Positions 30,747 to 37,428 of a DNA stretch of 64,000 bases are shown in pieces. Within the stretch, counting starts at the first letter, position 1. Every line of letters starts with the position of its first letter. The translations under genes were made by a program, and so were the position numbers. Location: positions 558,001 to 622,000 of the forward strand of contig NZ_VIKR01000001.1 in assembly GCF_007004765.1 (NCBI RefSeq). Reading direction: 5' to 3'. The DNA comes from Aliikangiella marina. GTDB taxonomy: Bacteria > Pseudomonadota > Gammaproteobacteria > Enterobacterales > Kangiellaceae. Under the pieces are notes generated by a model. The model was not told the DNA's origin. It saw only the letters and a program-made list of their open reading frames with translations, and did not search any database.

Positions 30747-31295
30747 ATGCAACTAGAGATTGAAACTAAAAATTTACTCATTAAGAAAATTCAATCGGAT
30801 GATTTTGAATTGTATCGAAAACTGTATTCGAGTCCTCAAGTCATGAAGTATATTTCGCCGGTACCACCTGATGAAGTGATAAAAAAAACATTTACGAAAT
30901 GCCTTGAGCCATGGAGCGTCAACACCAAAAGCAGCCTTGTTTTGACCATTTTTGTTAAAACGTGCAATAGTAAAGTTGGAATCTTAGGAGTTACTACTAC
31001 GGATCTCAAAAAGATGGTTGCTGAGCCCGGGATTATGTTATTACCCGAACATCAATCCATGGGGGTTGCCTTTGAGGCATTTAAGGAGTGTTTAAAGTAC
31101 TGCTTTGATTCAATTGGTTATAAGAAGGTCCAGGGTTCTCCGCACAGAGAAAATGTTGCTTCAATTAAAATGATAAGAAAACTAGGGTATCAATTCTACA
31201 AAACTGAGACATTACAAATATTCGATAACTGCCCACCTTTGACGGTCGATCGTCACTATCTTACCAAAGAAAATTTTGCATCTTTCACGAAATGA
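30747..31295 (+). CDS. GNAT-family N-acetyltransferase (RimJ/RimL type)
   Basis: A 182-residue acetyltransferase of the RimJ/RimL/Acetyltransf_3 kind. The N-terminal TKNLLIKKIQSDDFELYRKLYSSPQVMKYI and the C-terminal HRENVASIKMIRKLGYQFYKTE fit the acetyl-CoA-binding fold; the usual R/Q-x-x-G-x-G/A loop appears as HQSMGVAFEAF, a degenerate version. It converges on the repeat-containing precursor gene with only 43 bp between the stops. Its closeness to the borosin-like genes makes a role in modifying the peptide possible, but a general protein or antibiotic acetyltransferase is equally likely. Confidence 0.8.
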   Translation: MQLEIETKNLLIKKIQSDDFELYRKLYSSPQVMKYISPVPPDEVIKKTFTKCLEPWSVNTKSSLVLTIFVKTCNSKVGILGVTTTDLKKMVAEPGIMLLPEHQSMGVAFEAFKECLKYCFDSIGYKKVQGSPHRENVASIKMIRKLGYQFYKTETLQIFDNCPPLTVDRHYLTKENFASFTK

Positions 31296-31338
31296 GTCGC
31301 CTGCCAGCAATCTAAGCAAGCGACTTTTATACAGGGCT

Positions 31339-31707
31339 CTATTTAGGCGCGATTATCAAAGCTTTATGTGACGCTTGAGTTTTAGGCGTAATAATCAAAG
31401 CTTTGTGTGATGCTTGAGCTTTAGGGGTAATAATTAAAGCTTTGTGCGATGCTTGAGCTTTAGGGGTAATAATTAAAGCTTTGTGTGATGCTTGAGCTTT
31501 AGGGGTAATAATTAAAGCTTTGTGTGATGCTTGAGCTTTAGGGGTAATAATTAAAGCTTTGTGAGACGCTAGGGGTTTTGGACCTATGATTAGTGCTTTG
31601 TTGGCAGACAATCGAATCTGTTCGCTTTGAGCTGTTTCCTGAATTAGTTCCTCTTTAAGTTTCGAATTAGAAGCAAGTTCTATCAGTTGTTCAACATTAT
31701 AATTCAT
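31339..31707 (-). CDS. Multi-core borosin-like RiPP precursor with seven KALIIxPK repeats
   Basis: A 122-residue peptide with a 36-residue helical leader (MNYNVEQLIELASNSKLKEE at the start) and then seven copies of KALII(G/T/A)PK with a 13-residue period. The units start at residues 37, 50, 63, 76, 89, 102 and 115; spacers are PLASH, AQASH (four times) and TQASH, and the last unit ends the protein. The DNA repeats are 39 bp and nearly identical. The start at ATG 31707 is set by GAGGA six bases upstream; the frame extends to 31773 into the methyltransferase gene but that part is probably not translated. It lies 31 bp downstream of a borosin-type N-methyltransferase. The ALIITP cores are the kind of hydrophobic stretch such enzymes methylate on backbone amides. 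Confidence 0.85.
   Translation of the reverse strand: MNYNVEQLIELASNSKLKEELIQETAQSEQIRLSANKALIIGPKPLASHKALIITPKAQASHKALIITPKAQASHKALIITPKAQASHKALIITPKAQASHKALIITPKTQASHKALIIAPK
31342..31599 (-). repeat. 39-bp coding tandem repeats (7 units) in the RiPP precursor
   Basis: Six full 39-bp units and one partial 24-bp unit, read on the minus strand, each encoding KALII(G/T/A)PK plus a five-residue spacer. The four central units encode identical peptides and differ by only a base or two; the first and last are the most diverged (KALIIGPKPLASH, KALIIAPK). This gradient is typical of expansion in the middle of an array by unequal exchange or slippage. Confidence 0.93.
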
Positions 31708-31738
31708 GTTTTCCTCGTATTGTTGTTTGATGATGGTT

Positions 31739-32536
31739 TTAGTTAAATGCCAGTTGCTGTTCACTAACGCCAAATAGTTTGAGCGCTTCTGTATCTATTT
31801 CTAAGTCTTTGGCGGGTGGGATCACTAATGTAGAAATCATACTCAATGAAACATTGGAAAGGTCACGTAGAGCTATTTCTTCCTTTCTCGCTGATTCAGT
31901 TGGTAAGAATGGAGCTTCGTAGACGACAACTTTGTGGTCTAAAGGGTACCATTGACTCAAGTATTTAATGGTAAGCTCGATATTCGACTTGTTTGGTTCG
32001 AAAGTTTTAAGAGTGTGATCGCCCGCAAGTGCAATTTGCCACAAAATTAACAGACACGAAGTATCTACAGCGTGTTTGTAAAATAAGAATTGTGTAGCTT
32101 CATACGCTAAACACCCTGTATTACCCGGGTCTACACCTAAATCAGCGTACAGACAATCTTCTGCGGATATTCCTGGTTCCATGTGAGCCGAGTAACCCTC
32201 AGATAATGCCTGTCTTACCGCTTCATGAGGTACCCAAGCAAAAACTCCCGGATGACCATAAAAAGCACCAACCACTTTCTTCCCTGCTCGTACTTCATCC
32301 ATGATTGCTGAAACCATGTCTTGGTAGCATTCAATTCGGATTTTTTCTTCAGAGTAGAAAGGTTGTAAGCTCACATAATTCTTGTTCAAAATGGACATCC
32401 ACTCATCACATTCACTGTTCGGCATAATCCCAAACACAATATCAGCATTTTCAATATAACTTTTTGATATTACAGAGATTTGTCCGCCTAGTGCTATCCC
32501 AGTTCCAACACTAATGTATGACCCGCTTTTTTTCAT
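31739..32536 (-). CDS. Split borosin-type peptide alpha-N-methyltransferase 1
   Basis: A 265-residue enzyme of the tetrapyrrole-methylase (TP-methylase) fold. It matches the methyltransferase domain of OphMA/SonM borosin enzymes: GSYISVGTGIALGG at the start, the YxxxxxR...Y active region (Y61, R67, Y71), the SAM-binding YGHPGVF (93-99), PGISAEDCL (121-129), YADLGVDPGNTGCL and EATQFLF. There is no fused core peptide at the C-terminus, so it is a split enzyme acting in trans on a separate precursor, presumably the repeat peptide encoded 31 bp downstream. A corrin/porphyrin methylase is much less likely given these motifs. Start ATG 32536; the region upstream to the divergent protease is only about 160 bp and should carry both promoters. 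Confidence 0.9.
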   Translation of the reverse strand: MKKSGSYISVGTGIALGGQISVISKSYIENADIVFGIMPNSECDEWMSILNKNYVSLQPFYSEEKIRIECYQDMVSAIMDEVRAGKKVVGAFYGHPGVFAWVPHEAVRQALSEGYSAHMEPGISAEDCLYADLGVDPGNTGCLAYEATQFLFYKHAVDTSCLLILWQIALAGDHTLKTFEPNKSNIELTIKYLSQWYPLDHKVVVYEAPFLPTESARKEEIALRDLSNVSLSMISTLVIPPAKDLEIDTEALKLFGVSEQQLAFN

Positions 32537-32699
32537 TATAACTACTTGAGAATCCGAATTTTACAAACGCGTTCGGATTCTAAATCAATTTCTTGATTTA
32601 CACAATTAATGTTTATGGATTGTGTTTCTTTCGTTAGAATAGCGAGGCATTTTTAGGTAAGTAGATTTAGTGTGAACTTTGCTCAGAGGTCATTTCGCT

Positions 32700-33986
32700 A
32701 TGAATACAAAAAAGCGGTCACTTCGTATGCCGACTACCAATGTTCTGGCCAGAGGCGGCCACTCAATTACGATAAGTTTTGGTAGTGAGCTGGATACAGC
32801 AGAGTTGATTCTTGATACCGGTAGTTCGACGCTCGTTGTGACTCAAGAGGCTTATGAGTCTAAAGTTGATAAGGAACTCCAAGCGACAACATTTGCGCAG
32901 TGTATTCGATATGGTATGGGGGGATGGTATGGACCGGTAGTAAAGACCGGCGTGGACATGATTTGTCATGATGGAAAAATGATTCTTGATGATGCCCACG
33001 TAGCAATTGCGACGGAATTTTCAGAAGGTTCGTTTGCGAAAGCGGACGGAATCTTAGGACTTGCGTTTCACTCTTTAAATGATGGCCACTGCTTGCAAGA
33101 ATATCTGCTGGAGCAAAAAATTGAACCGAGCGTAACTTACCCATGGTCTGCCACACAAATTGAGTCACAACCGATCAAAGAGTTTAAAAGCTTTTTAAAA
33201 GGAAAGCCTAAGGAAGATATAAAGCCTTATTTTACCCGACTTGAAGAGATGGGTATTTCACCAAACAAGTTTGCGTTTATGGCGCATCGTTCGAGTATCC
33301 ACCATGCCGAACCTAACTTACCTGATGAGGTGCTCAAGCAGGACCCACTCAACCAAGGCATGTTCATTTTAGGGGGCGGTGAAGAAGATTATGATTTGTA
33401 CGAGGGCGAGTTCATCAAGCTTAAAGTCATTGATGATGTCTACTACAACGTTAGGTTAATGAAAGTTAAAGTTGACGGGTTTGAGGCGTTCGACGTGCCC
33501 AAACTAAAAGGTAAAGAACTTGAACGTCATCACTCGAACGCGTTTATTGATACCGGGGCGTCTTACATAGTGTTGGATAACGTTGTATTCGAGTACATTA
33601 TGCAATGTTTGGAAAGTATCAAACCAGCGTTTAAAGCTATTCTAGAGCCCTTTCATACCTTTGAATATAAAGAAGAGGGCGTTCCAATGGAAAAGGTTAA
33701 CTTGGATGAGTGGCCTGACATTGAGTTTATCTTCCAGGCTTCTGACAGTGTTGATGCAGAAGAGGTTTCACTGATGTGTCATGCGCATGATTATTGGCAA
33801 GTTAATTCTCCAACTCACGGTGAAGTGTGCTTTAAATTTGCATCTCAGTTACCCGGGTGGCCCGATCAGTCGATATTGGGATTACCTCTGATGAGTGGTT
33901 ACTACACCATCTTCGCAAGATTTGTCGGAGAGCTTGGAGAAATAAAAATCGCGAAAGCCAAATCAGCGAATACAAATAAAAGTTAG
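32700..33986 (+). CDS. Pepsin-family (A1) aspartic protease, cytoplasmic
   Basis: A 428-residue two-lobed aspartic protease. The two catalytic motifs are LILDTGSSTLVV (D39) and AFIDTGASYIVLD (D284). The flap is visible as CIRYGMGGWYGP, with its tyrosine at Y71 where pepsin has YGTGS. Both lobes are in one chain, as in eukaryotic pepsins and the few bacterial homologues such as shewasin A, and unlike retroviral or archaeal single-lobe types. There is no signal peptide or propeptide, so it should act in the cytoplasm. The start ATG 32700 follows AGAGGT; TTG 32679 is in frame. It is divergent from methyltransferase 1 and precedes methyltransferase 2, so cleavage of the repeat precursor is a good hypothesis. 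Confidence 0.88.
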   Translation: MNTKKRSLRMPTTNVLARGGHSITISFGSELDTAELILDTGSSTLVVTQEAYESKVDKELQATTFAQCIRYGMGGWYGPVVKTGVDMICHDGKMILDDAHVAIATEFSEGSFAKADGILGLAFHSLNDGHCLQEYLLEQKIEPSVTYPWSATQIESQPIKEFKSFLKGKPKEDIKPYFTRLEEMGISPNKFAFMAHRSSIHHAEPNLPDEVLKQDPLNQGMFILGGGEEDYDLYEGEFIKLKVIDDVYYNVRLMKVKVDGFEAFDVPKLKGKELERHHSNAFIDTGASYIVLDNVVFEYIMQCLESIKPAFKAILEPFHTFEYKEEGVPMEKVNLDEWPDIEFIFQASDSVDAEEVSLMCHAHDYWQVNSPTHGEVCFKFASQLPGWPDQSILGLPLMSGYYTIFARFVGELGEIKIAKAKSANTNKS

Positions 33987-34520
33987 AAAAACTCTCCACA
34001 GAGTAGTTCAAGCTTGTTTCTTTTGAGGAGAGTGTACGGCAGCTGTATGTGAATTTACATTCCTATCCATGTGTCATTAAAGTAATTACCGAACCTTCGA
34101 GTCAACCGCAATCAAGTAAATCATTTCATGTTTGTATTGTTGAGAGCAATCCAAGTTACTTCGCCAAGTACTCGTAGATTATATAATGTACAATGAAAAA
34201 CTAAAGTGGCAGGCATTAGCGTACTAGTGATAGAAGATAAACTTTTAGGCAGTACTTCGTTTGGCTTTTTAATATCCAAGGAGTTTGGAAAATAGCCATA
34301 ACCTCCTAATCCTGGATGAAATAATACTACATGGAGTATGGCAAGAAATGGCAAAATTTTGTTTTGCTTTTCGAAACTTCAATTACAATCTCATATTGAC
34401 TTACTATTAGTCGTGTCTTCGATTTTACAAAATAAGAGTCTGATAATACTAGGATTGGCGAGTTCTACTGGTTTAAATAGCTCGTCAACATAAAACATGT
34501 TAACTGGAAATAATATTACG
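33987..34520. other. Spacer with a possible decayed UmuD/LexA-like fragment
   Basis: No intact gene. Just after the protease stop, ACTCTCC and GGAGAGT (about 33990-34033) could pair as a loose hairpin. On the minus strand, 34121-34354 encodes a 77-residue frame ending in NLRVLGEVTWIALNN, which faintly resembles the C-terminus of S24/UmuD-type peptidases, but the catalytic motifs are absent. The promoter for methyltransferase 2 is presumably near 34400-34490. Confidence 0.4.
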
Positions 34521-35306
34521 ATGAACCAAATTGGTAGCTATGCAAGTGTCGGTATTGGGATGATGTTGGGCGCCCACATAACACCTGCAGCGAAAGATCA
34601 TATCTTAAACGCAGACGTCTGCTTCCTCGCTGCGTCTGATTCTCTCGTAGAGTTGTGGATAAAAGAGTTGCATCCTAATGTCAGAAGTCTACAAAGCTAT
34701 TATGCTAGTAATAAATCTCGTAAGGACACTTACCGGGAAATGATAGAAGTTGTTTTGAGTGAAGTATTTGCGGGTAAAAGAGTTTGTGGAATCTTCTATG
34801 GGCACCCTGGAGTTTTTGCTTATGCCCCCCATGAAATCGTCAAGCGAATTCGAGCGAAAGGGGGCAAAGCAATTATGGAGCCAGGCATATCGGCAGAAGA
34901 CTGTTTAATAGCTGATCTCGGTCTTGATCCAGGAAAATACGGGTGTCAGCAATTCGAAGCTAGTCAATTCTTATTTTATGATCGAATGATAGATCCTTCA
35001 GCTACCTTAATTTTATGGCAAATTGCATTGGTGGGCGATTTGAGTTTTGGTTGCGAAGCCACGAGTTCGCAATGTAGGCAAGTTTTATTGGAAGAACTTT
35101 ATAAAATATATCCTGAAAATCATAAAGTAACCTTGTATGAAGCCATGACTTTACCAATAGGAGAACCACGAATCGATGTGATACCACTTTCCTCGTTAGT
35201 CGATGTCAAGCTAAATGATTATACGACATTGGTCGTTCCTCCATTATCCAAAATGAAAAGGAACATCAAAATAATCGAAAAACTTAAAAGAATTCACTCT
35301 AAATGA
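34521..35306 (+). CDS. Split borosin-type peptide alpha-N-methyltransferase 2
   Basis: A 261-residue paralogue of methyltransferase 1, alignable without large gaps from the first residues: GSYASVGIGMMLGAHIT, Y60-Y61, R67 and Y71 of the catalytic region, YGHPGVFAYAPHE at 93-105, PGISAEDCLIADLGLDPG and EASQFLFYD. With start ATG 34521 the residue numbers coincide exactly with those of the first enzyme, which favours this codon over ATG 34497. No core peptide is fused at the C-terminus, so it should act in trans. Its likely substrate is the acidic-tailed peptide encoded 63 bp downstream. It is on the opposite strand from methyltransferase 1 and downstream of the pepsin-like protease. Confidence 0.9.
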   Translation: MNQIGSYASVGIGMMLGAHITPAAKDHILNADVCFLAASDSLVELWIKELHPNVRSLQSYYASNKSRKDTYREMIEVVLSEVFAGKRVCGIFYGHPGVFAYAPHEIVKRIRAKGGKAIMEPGISAEDCLIADLGLDPGKYGCQQFEASQFLFYDRMIDPSATLILWQIALVGDLSFGCEATSSQCRQVLLEELYKIYPENHKVTLYEAMTLPIGEPRIDVIPLSSLVDVKLNDYTTLVVPPLSKMKRNIKIIEKLKRIHSK

Positions 35307-35369
35307 TTGTTTTTACGTAATTATCTAGTATTATTACCGTTCGAGAGAAACTATTTTAGGACGATAAAA

Positions 35370-35654
35370 ATGAATAAAGTAATAAGGTTCCTTGAAGAGC
35401 TGGGTGAAAGTTCAGCACTACGACTGGATAAAGTAGACTTTGAATCAATTCTCAACAATGAAGAGTTTGATGAGGAAACCAAAAAAGCAATCCTAAATGA
35501 GGATCCTGCGGCGCTAAAAATGTTAATGGATGCTCGACATAAAATTGTATGTATATTGATACCTGCTGAGCCGGACGAAGAAGAAGATGATGATGATTCG
35601 GAAGAGGATGACTCTCAAAATGATGAAAAAACCTCTCGTATTGCAATGCTATAG
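35370..35654 (+). CDS. Split-borosin-like precursor with helical leader, short core and acidic tail
   Basis: A 94-residue peptide. The first ~55 residues look like the helical borosin-binding domain of SonA-type precursors (VIRFLEELGESSALRL ... EETKKAILNEDPAALKMLMDA). This is followed by a short hydrophobic stretch HKIVCILIPAEP, a plausible core, and by a strongly acidic tail (DEEEDDDDSEEDDSQND) ending TSRIAML. The start ATG 35370 is placed by AGGA (35358-35361); the frame extends upstream to TTG 35307. It lies just after methyltransferase 2 and unlike the first precursor has a single candidate core. The acidic tail may be a solubility or recognition element. Assignment rests on context and general architecture. 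Confidence 0.75.
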   Translation: MNKVIRFLEELGESSALRLDKVDFESILNNEEFDEETKKAILNEDPAALKMLMDARHKIVCILIPAEPDEEEDDDDSEEDDSQNDEKTSRIAML

Positions 35655-35673
35655 ATAGCAAAGAAATTCAGAA

Positions 35674-37428
35674 GTGAAGGCGAATAAAGGGTACAAAAAA
35701 CTCATACTTTGTATGAGTTTTTTCTATATTCCTTTTCTAGTGAGTTCTAAACAGCTTGAACTGGAGGCTGTGGACGCTCAGCTCCAACTAGCCGAGAATG
35801 TTAAGTCATCGGACAGTGTTCGGTTTGACGAGCTTCTGTACTCAATAAACTCCAAATTTGATCAACTTACGATAGATCAGAAGTACAGATACTTGTTTCT
35901 TAGCGCTTACCAATCCTCGTATAAAGGTGATGTAGCGAAAGCGATCGGCTTGTACAAGCACGTTGAACGAAACTCTCAAAATGTTAATTTACGATATAAA
36001 GCAAGCGTCTCCTTGGTAAATTTATTTTCGCTCAGAAAAGACTGGCAGAGTGGTTTTGATTATTTGGACACCATAAATAATAATTTCGAATCAATAGAGG
36101 ATGTATCAACAAGACATCTCGGTCTAATCGGAGCTTCATTTTTCTATAACGAATTAGAACAATATGAGATGACTCAAATCTTTGTAGGAAGGCTAATTGA
36201 CGAAGAGGTCAGCGGAAGAAATTTATGTATGACATTGGGCCTCAAGCTTCGTGCGGACTTGGTCACTCGGAAGTCAGAGCTCAAAGAATCTGATTTTACT
36301 TCGGGCATTCAATCATGTCTTGACGTTAATGAGCCAATCATAGCAAATGTAATGAGAAGTTATTTTGGCGCGTTTTATAATTACAAGAAAGAGTCGGAGA
36401 CAACTATTAAGCTTCTAGAGAGGCATTACGAAGAGTCGATGGGGTTTAATTACCCCTTTTTAACTTTTGAGATAAACATCGCGTTAGCGAAAGCCTACCA
36501 GAATATAGGCGACCTCAAGAAAGCCAAGCAATTTGCACGCGTCGTTGCCGATAGCCCGGTGGCAAATGACTATATTGAACGTTTGGTTGAAGCGTTCGAG
36601 ATAATTGCACTACATGCAATGGAAAAAAATGAGTTCGAGAAAGCAGTGTATTATCAGGACAAGTACATCAGGGCAAAAGAAAAATTGTTTGAGCAGGCCA
36701 AAGCAAAACAAATCGCGATAGAGTTTTCGAAACACCGTGCAGTTGAAAAAGATAATCAAATAAAAATACTTAACAATCAAAACCGAATTCTTCAGTTAGA
36801 AAAAGAATTGTCTGAGGAGTCGGCTTTATACAATAGATGGATTATTATTCTGCTCGTTGTCAGTGTATCTATTTTATTTATGTGGGTGTTTTATGTGAAG
36901 CGCTCCCAACAGAAATTACGCTATCTGGCTGAATTTGACAGTTTGACTGGAGTTAGTAACCGAGCATATTTTAATCAAAATTCTGAGGCTATTCTTAATT
37001 ATTATTCGAAAACGAACCGAACAGCGAGTTTGGTCTTATTTGATTTAGATAATTTTAAAAAGATTAACGATACCTATGGTCACCCCATCGGTGATGAGGT
37101 GCTTAAACTGGCTGCAGAGGCTTGTAAGGCGTGCGTTAGAAAAGTTGATATCTTTGGTAGGGTAGGCGGAGAAGAGTTCGCTATGTTGCTCCCTGGCTGT
37201 GAATTGGAGCAAGCTTTGAAGATAGCGGAAGACTGTCGCGCTAAAATTGAGAGTATCGATACCTCGACACTCGGTATGCAAGGAAAGATTACCGCAAGTT
37301 TTGGTGTCGCCGACAGTGCTTCAACAGGTTACTTACTCAAAGACTTAACGGCCAACGCTGACGAAGCCATGTATCTTGCAAAACGGCGGGGCAGAAACCG
37401 CGTTGTAAATTATCAATCTAGCGAGTAA
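35674..37428 (+). CDS. TPR-containing diguanylate cyclase (GGDEF)
   Basis: A 584-residue membrane sensor making cyclic di-GMP. An N-terminal signal sequence (LILCMSFFYIPFLVSS) is followed by a periplasmic helical region of TPR-like repeats (about 30-350), a coiled coil (about 350-385), one membrane segment (WIIILLVVSVSILFMWVFYV, about 389-408) and a cytoplasmic GGDEF domain. The active-site motif is intact (FGRVGGEEFAMLLPG, GGEEF near 498) and an inhibitory I-site RKVD (R-x-x-D) precedes it at the standard spacing. The GTG 35674 start is 20 bp after the second precursor stop, so the two may share a transcript. Domain calls are firm; the signal sensed is unknown. Confidence 0.88.
   Translation: MKANKGYKKLILCMSFFYIPFLVSSKQLELEAVDAQLQLAENVKSSDSVRFDELLYSINSKFDQLTIDQKYRYLFLSAYQSSYKGDVAKAIGLYKHVERNSQNVNLRYKASVSLVNLFSLRKDWQSGFDYLDTINNNFESIEDVSTRHLGLIGASFFYNELEQYEMTQIFVGRLIDEEVSGRNLCMTLGLKLRADLVTRKSELKESDFTSGIQSCLDVNEPIIANVMRSYFGAFYNYKKESETTIKLLERHYEESMGFNYPFLTFEINIALAKAYQNIGDLKKAKQFARVVADSPVANDYIERLVEAFEIIALHAMEKNEFEKAVYYQDKYIRAKEKLFEQAKAKQIAIEFSKHRAVEKDNQIKILNNQNRILQLEKELSEESALYNRWIIILLVVSVSILFMWVFYVKRSQQKLRYLAEFDSLTGVSNRAYFNQNSEAILNYYSKTNRTASLVLFDLDNFKKINDTYGHPIGDEVLKLAAEACKACVRKVDIFGRVGGEEFAMLLPGCELEQALKIAEDCRAKIESIDTSTLGMQGKITASFGVADSASTGYLLKDLTANADEAMYLAKRRGRNRVVNYQSSE

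Follow-up and report, generated by a model that had tools for sequence, protein, structure and literature searches.

Two probable split-borosin systems side by side in Aliikangiella marina, one of them in a conserved cassette with a shewasin-group pepsin

We analysed a 64-kb stretch of DNA (hereafter the window) from the 5.3-Mb genome of Aliikangiella marina (family Kangiellaceae, hereafter f1) and focused on a locus at 30747-37428 with two alpha-N-methyltransferases (MT-A and MT-B), two small precursor-type genes (preA and preB) and a pepsin-like protease. The best reading is that two split-borosin systems lie side by side here; MT-B, preB and the pepsin belong together in a conserved cassette. 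Both systems very probably methylate the backbones of short peptides, and our best reading of related genomes is that bacterial pepsins of this kind would process a borosin subtype. An earlier note on the same DNA had described a complete candidate split-borosin locus at 31339-35654; its five genes are as it placed them, but the locus was not complete, as a GNAT acetyltransferase gene and a GGDEF diguanylate cyclase gene had been left out. Judged by comparison with relatives, these two flanking genes are part of the locus.

Both methyltransferases carry a TP_methylase domain (Pfam; MT-A 2.5e-14, MT-B 6.6e-17), and the closest solved relative of each was SonM (MT-A 5.1e-87, MT-B 1.5e-67), with OphMA/dbOphMA next. 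The active-site residues of SonM are Y58, R67, Y71 and Y93 (PMC8429565; here and below, papers are cited from excerpts of their text). Residues Y61, R67, Y71 and Y93 of MT-A align with them, these four positions are invariant in 14/14 aligned methyltransferases, and the motifs YGHPGVF and PGISAEDCL were found in the sequence. On sequence grounds, both enzymes are borosin methyltransferases with the active-site residues of SonM, which agrees with the identity given to them in the earlier note. Grouping with cobalamin or siroheme methylases, the outcome named there as counting against this identity, did not arise. MT-A scored 12.9 bits against the CobI/CbiL model (cut-off 163) and 31.7 bits against the YabN model (cut-off 525), MT-B scored 43.2 bits against YabN (cut-off 525), and the profile search results contained no cobalamin or siroheme methylase match for MT-B. 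A cobalamin or siroheme methylase identity was ruled out because the scores were well under the family cut-offs and SonM and OphMA were nearest.

A small precursor-type gene directly follows each enzyme, preA after MT-A and preB after MT-B, as previously proposed, and these separate genes are candidate substrates. The preA product has a leader of ~36 aa and 7 units of 13 residues, with KALII-x-PK cores and xxASH linkers; Tandem Repeats Finder reported the array as a 39-bp unit in 5.5 copies with a score of 370. Among the 7 cores the differing codon pairs were 52 synonymous versus 11 non-synonymous, pairs that are not independent of each other. No Pfam match was obtained for preA. With regard to a borosin binding domain in the precursor leaders, a PDB sequence search with preB gave no meaningful match. 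The preB protein aligns with relatives, which tblastn placed 3' of the methyltransferase in loci L052-L055 and L060. Across the order-level genome set described below, the cores of acid-tailed precursors are typically IVCMLVPAKDDD or VVCVLFPAEEEE. Variation was seen among the precursors: the acid-tailed precursor at 9098-9478 of L055 has a long Asp-Asn repeat tail, genome G238 (L115) has two tandem precursors without Cys and without the PAE core motif, and G1018 (L261) has a normal precursor core despite a pepsin in two frames.

The earlier note had tentatively assigned both enzymes, both precursors and the protease to one joint pathway, a proposal that fits the relatives poorly. In relatives the cassette lies on one strand in the order pepsin, GNAT, methyltransferase, precursor, GGDEF protein, and the links of the pepsin are confined to MT-B-type enzymes whose precursors are acid-tailed. 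MT-A and preA are encoded on the strand opposite to the pepsin cassette in the window. In Kangiella aquimarina, the MT-A relative has a two-core precursor and adjoins an MT-B-type module that has no pepsin. The enzymes are also separated by phylogeny, in a FastTree tree that took in 145 of the 147 methyltransferase rows. MT-A falls in a 14-row clade (support 98) whose every row is from f1 and which is confined to f1 among the genomes searched; its identity to the Kangiella enzymes (group g5 within f1, an inferred assignment) is 59-61%. MT-B falls within a 50-row clade (support 91; 49 of the rows at 95) that takes in all 22 pepsin-linked methyltransferases and every acid-type row of the tree, and the SonM-type Shewanella enzymes form a separate clade of 24 rows (support 99). 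A joint pathway for both methyltransferases was dropped because the clades are separate, the pepsin is linked to the MT-B type only and the strands differ; MT-A and preA are a module apart from the pepsin. Tandem methyltransferase pairs followed by a single precursor were observed in L046 and L047, and in L046 the precursor is followed in turn by an open frame of 1195 aa that has a GGDEF match.

The protease between the two enzymes is a family A1 pepsin, in the same group as the shewasins. The pepsin-family assignment of the earlier note holds: the protein matches PF00026, both catalytic aspartates (D39 and D284) are invariant in 16/16 aligned homologues, and its AlphaFold2 model (predicted local distance difference test score, pLDDT, 88.2) has a pepsin fold with BACE1 as the best Foldseek match (1.8e-23; template modelling score by query 0.61-0.66 among the matches listed). 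Bacterial pepsin homologues were first reported in 2009 (PMC2761423). A 2016 study described shewasin D as mainly cytosolic and acid-active and left its in-vivo function open, and the published shewasins are inhibited by pepstatin and have an optimum at pH 3.5-4.5 (PMC4814920).

The association of pepsin and methyltransferase was profiled in an order-level set of 394 genomes. The pepsin profile matched 38 genomes and the methyltransferase profile 95; a borosin methyltransferase was present in 38/38 pepsin genomes versus 57/356 others (Fisher 4e-27, a test that ignores kinship). In 23 of these pepsin genomes a pepsin lies just upstream of a methyltransferase and shares its strand, an arrangement that recurs in four family groups (f1, f6, f7 and f20). 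In 22 of the 23 linked genomes the methyltransferase is at least 150 aa and the gap 503-1022 bp, and in the 23rd (G018) the methyltransferase is cut by the contig end. The 15 unlinked pepsin genomes are 11 Kangiella genomes, G011, G013, G016 and G117. Acid-tailed precursors were detected in 37/38 pepsin genomes, 35 by script and two (G058 and G165) by eye; the G018 precursor could not be judged because the contig ends. Among 18 Kangiella genomes, the pepsin and an acid-tailed precursor were both present in 11 and both not found in 7 (p 3e-5), even though the two genes are unlinked, and the methyltransferases of the 7 genomes without pepsin lie outside the pepsin-associated clade. In a class-level set of 369 genomes a pepsin was detected only in the window genome and in G762, a member of a distant family with methyltransferase, acid-tailed precursor and GGDEF protein together and an unlinked pepsin. 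A phylum-level set of 299 genomes added G855 alone for pepsin.

The same arrangement is found at the named shewasins; neither this nor the generality of the pepsin association had been noticed in the earlier note. Among 129 Shewanella genomes, 40 have a pepsin and 112 a methyltransferase, and among the matches listed a methyltransferase lies 542-962 bp downstream of the pepsin on the same strand in 39 of the 40; after the 40th pepsin come a GNAT gene and then the contig end. Nine of the 40 genomes are also in the order set, so that the union comprises 69 genomes, 53 of them linked. Coordinates of Sden_0804 (shewasin D), Sama_0787 (shewasin A), Shew_2996 and Ssed_3567 matched exactly those in Table 1 of PMC2761423, in a comparison made for the Shewanella loci of that table, which also lists Colwellia, Marinomonas and Sinorhizobium loci. 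All four published Shewanella loci have the order pepsin, GNAT, methyltransferase, precursor(s), GGDEF protein. When the longest open frames are taken, the pepsin gene shares 4 bp with the GNAT gene at shewasins D and A, as does the methyltransferase gene with the precursor gene at shewasin D. The locus of shewasin D (L256, S. denitrificans) has two tandem acid-tailed precursors, at 926463-926723 and 926707-927042, after the methyltransferase.

A GNAT gene lies between pepsin and methyltransferase in 19 of the 22 linked loci by a single query and in two more by profile. The 22nd is the window, where a profile search (stops read as X, filters off) detected a remnant in frame +1 (E 1.3e-7) and a single-sequence tblastn between pepsin and MT-B found nothing significant. 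An intact GNAT gene at this place was ruled out. The GNAT protein encoded at the left end of the locus, a relative of those found between pepsin and methyltransferase elsewhere, is 19-30% identical to the 14 GNATs compared and scored 8.3e-60 against a GNAT profile built with this protein included; it may stand in for the decayed one.

The cyclase has a predicted membrane helix, an N-terminal helical sensor domain resembling tetratricopeptide repeats (TPR) and a C-terminal GGDEF domain. Its AlphaFold2 model (pLDDT 91.0, predicted template modelling score 0.59) begins with a long helix, which is followed by a helical solenoid (48-317), another long helix and the GGDEF domain. Engineered TPR proteins reach 7e-22 with the cyclase profile, although the best-scoring one contains no individual stretch that passes by itself. 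Residues 1-389 had a single match in the window genome. A GGDEF protein lies 3' of 42/43 acid-type methyltransferase rows versus 38/104 other rows, counts taken with a full-length query to which any GGDEF protein can score; the 38 include 24/24 SonM-type Shewanella rows. Some borosin-GGDEF connection is already in print, since a GGDEF domain is named in the legend of a borosin figure (PMC11395268). Within the sensor region, two cysteines (C185 and C215) are invariant in 27/27 chosen sequences (the window and 26 relatives). Promoter and terminator scans were near chance, with 22 promoters found versus 17.1 expected and 5 terminators versus 5.1.

Table 1 Features of the locus in the window (positions count from the first base of the window).
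Feature	Position	Strand	Evidence
GNAT acetyltransferase (Acetyltransf_3), probable accessory gene	30747..31295	+	Pfam PF13302 7.7e-20
preA precursor, short leader and 7 tandem 13-aa units	31339..31707	-	repeat analysis
7-copy core array within preA	31342..31599	-	repeat analysis
MT-A borosin alpha-N-methyltransferase, 265 aa	31739..32536	-	SonM E 5.1e-87
Pepsin-like aspartic protease, family A1 (shewasin group), 428 aa from ATG	32700..33986	+	PF00026 1e-14
Stretch with decayed GNAT remnant	33961..34560	+	GNAT profile E 1.3e-7
MT-B borosin alpha-N-methyltransferase	34521..35306 (open frame from 34497)	+	SonM E 1.5e-67 (query from 34497)
preB precursor, core around IVCILIPAEP, acidic tail	35370..35654	+	preB relatives 3' of methyltransferase
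Diguanylate cyclase, C-terminal GGDEF (GGEEF) domain	35674..37428	+	PF00990 3.7e-42

The data show gene content, family membership, conserved order, co-occurrence and predicted folds; methylation, cleavage and the place of the cut, acetylation, export and sensing are inference. The locus is probably best explained by MT-B methylating preB, the pepsin processing it and the cyclase sensing the outcome, with MT-A separately methylating the cores of preA. MT-B would dock on the leader of preB and methylate backbone amides in the hydrophobic core that precedes the PAE motif. Cutting of the methylated precursor by the pepsin would then remove the leader and/or the acidic tail and release the peptide. 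The GNAT may acetylate the product. The cyclase, presumably membrane-bound, would detect the product through its helical sensor domain and signal by making cyclic di-GMP. On the other strand, MT-A would methylate the seven KALII-x-PK cores of preA.

Several observations weigh against this explanation. The acid optimum of the published shewasins is odd for a cytosolic processing enzyme. A simple cleavage-site rule, built on published shewasin preferences and with its register off in a few rows (e.g., G327), gave no single conserved predicted pepsin site: the commonest cut, inside the core and one residue before the PAE proline, was predicted in only 17/41 precursors, a cut near the leader-core junction in 11/41 and a leader cut at -23 in 10/41. 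Very few evolutionary events may underlie the pattern seen in Kangiella. G009 and G022 carry a second, unlinked pepsin, and two linked pepsins look broken, the one in G238 being a short fragment and the one in G1018 lying in two reading frames. In G007 (73% complete) the pepsin is at a contig end, the one methyltransferase is outside the pepsin-associated clade and no acid-tailed precursor was seen. G855, from another class, has a more distant pepsin (L228) and no borosin methyltransferase was found in its genome; no neighbour of L228 was marked by any of three profiles or queries. Conversely, 5 of the 40 genomes with an acid-tailed precursor by script have no pepsin, and about five more pepsin-less genomes have such a precursor with looser cores, recognized by eye. 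The pepsin is therefore not essential to the acid-tailed subtype, and given G855, G007 and the pepsin-less genomes the pepsin-methyltransferase link is strong, not absolute. The idea of a peptide receptor has no fold support, because the best 50 Foldseek matches listed for the cyclase are all GGDEF-containing structures and include no peptide receptor.

It is unlikely, though worth weighing, that the pepsin is a clearance protease that destroys unmethylated precursor, N-methylation blocking cleavage of the core and another protease making the product. The commonest predicted cut does lie inside the core, and 0/24 SonM-type Shewanella rows are pepsin-linked; such systems must therefore mature otherwise. 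The site rule is crude, however, and predicts other sites too, and clearance leaves the pairing of the pepsin with acid-tailed precursors unexplained. By itself the rule does not discriminate between maturation of the precursor and clearance of its bare form. We regard as more improbable still that the linkage is an inherited neighbourhood without shared function and the pepsin a general stress protease. The cassette could be inherited as a block, our counts ignore kinship, the authors of the shewasin D study suggest stress-related roles (PMC4814920), and in G855 a pepsin occurs without a methyltransferase; yet co-occurrence outlasts lost linkage in 11 Kangiella genomes, G011, G013, G016, G117 and G762, and identical order and strand recur in the four family groups.

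That MT-A and MT-B act on a non-peptide substrate, such as a tetrapyrrole or another small molecule, is hardly credible. Their TP_methylase domains and weak YabN matches would allow it, but SonM and OphMA, which modify peptides, lead the solved relatives by tens of orders of magnitude, the active-site residues are kept and a precursor-like gene follows each enzyme.

Processing of methylated preB by the pepsin stays our preferred reading, and it may be extended, tentatively and with more doubt than confidence, to the shewasin-group pepsins as a whole: these would be dedicated borosin proteases, and the cassette a circuit in which a methylated peptide is freed, exported and read by a TPR-like sensor that passes the signal to cyclic di-GMP. 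If true, Gram-negative bacteria would have a pheromone system based on methylated peptides and on a eukaryote-like protease. The cassette points to a likely function for bacterial pepsins, long without an explanation, in the processing of borosin peptides, and it offers a candidate protease for the release of N-methylated peptides and a hypothesis for the role of bacterial borosins. The conserved gene set joins two open questions in a form that is testable in the Shewanella species with published shewasins.

Split borosins, multi-core borosin precursors and bacterial pepsins are each already known. Among the papers listed in searches of the open-licence literature we found no account that joins borosins with pepsins or shewasins; key borosin papers lie outside this scope, and an earlier mention is possible. 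Of the novelty suggested for the locus in the earlier note, the joint gene set was indeed not found in print, but a multi-core precursor had been described: a passage on fungal RiPPs (ribosomally synthesized and post-translationally modified peptides) in the review PMC11253845, citing Imani 2022 and Quijano 2019, reports borosin precursors with several cores each, like preA. In OphMA/dbOphMA, the methyltransferase domain is homologous and the core is fused to the enzyme, unlike the split MT-A and MT-B; the cyclisation of omphalotin involves OphP, a serine peptidase (PMC12235650). The type IV split borosin SonM/SonA of Shewanella oneidensis (PMC8429565) likewise has a separate S-adenosylmethionine-dependent enzyme with an adjacent short precursor, and its active-site residues are the same as those of MT-A and MT-B. 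The SonM-type precursors listed differ from preB in having neither an acidic tail nor a PAE motif, and the 24 SonM-type Shewanella rows are all without a linked pepsin and without an upstream GNAT, unlike the MT-B cassette; a word search of the main text of PMC8429565 found no pepsin, peptidase, GGDEF or acetyltransferase. The shewasin papers, as excerpted, treat the proteases alone (PMC4814920 and PMC2761423), and in these excerpts word searches on operon, methyl and neighbour terms brought up no passage about adjoining genes. Shewasins A and D have the protein family, the catalytic motifs, the resemblance to BACE1 and the cassette setting in common with the pepsin of the window.

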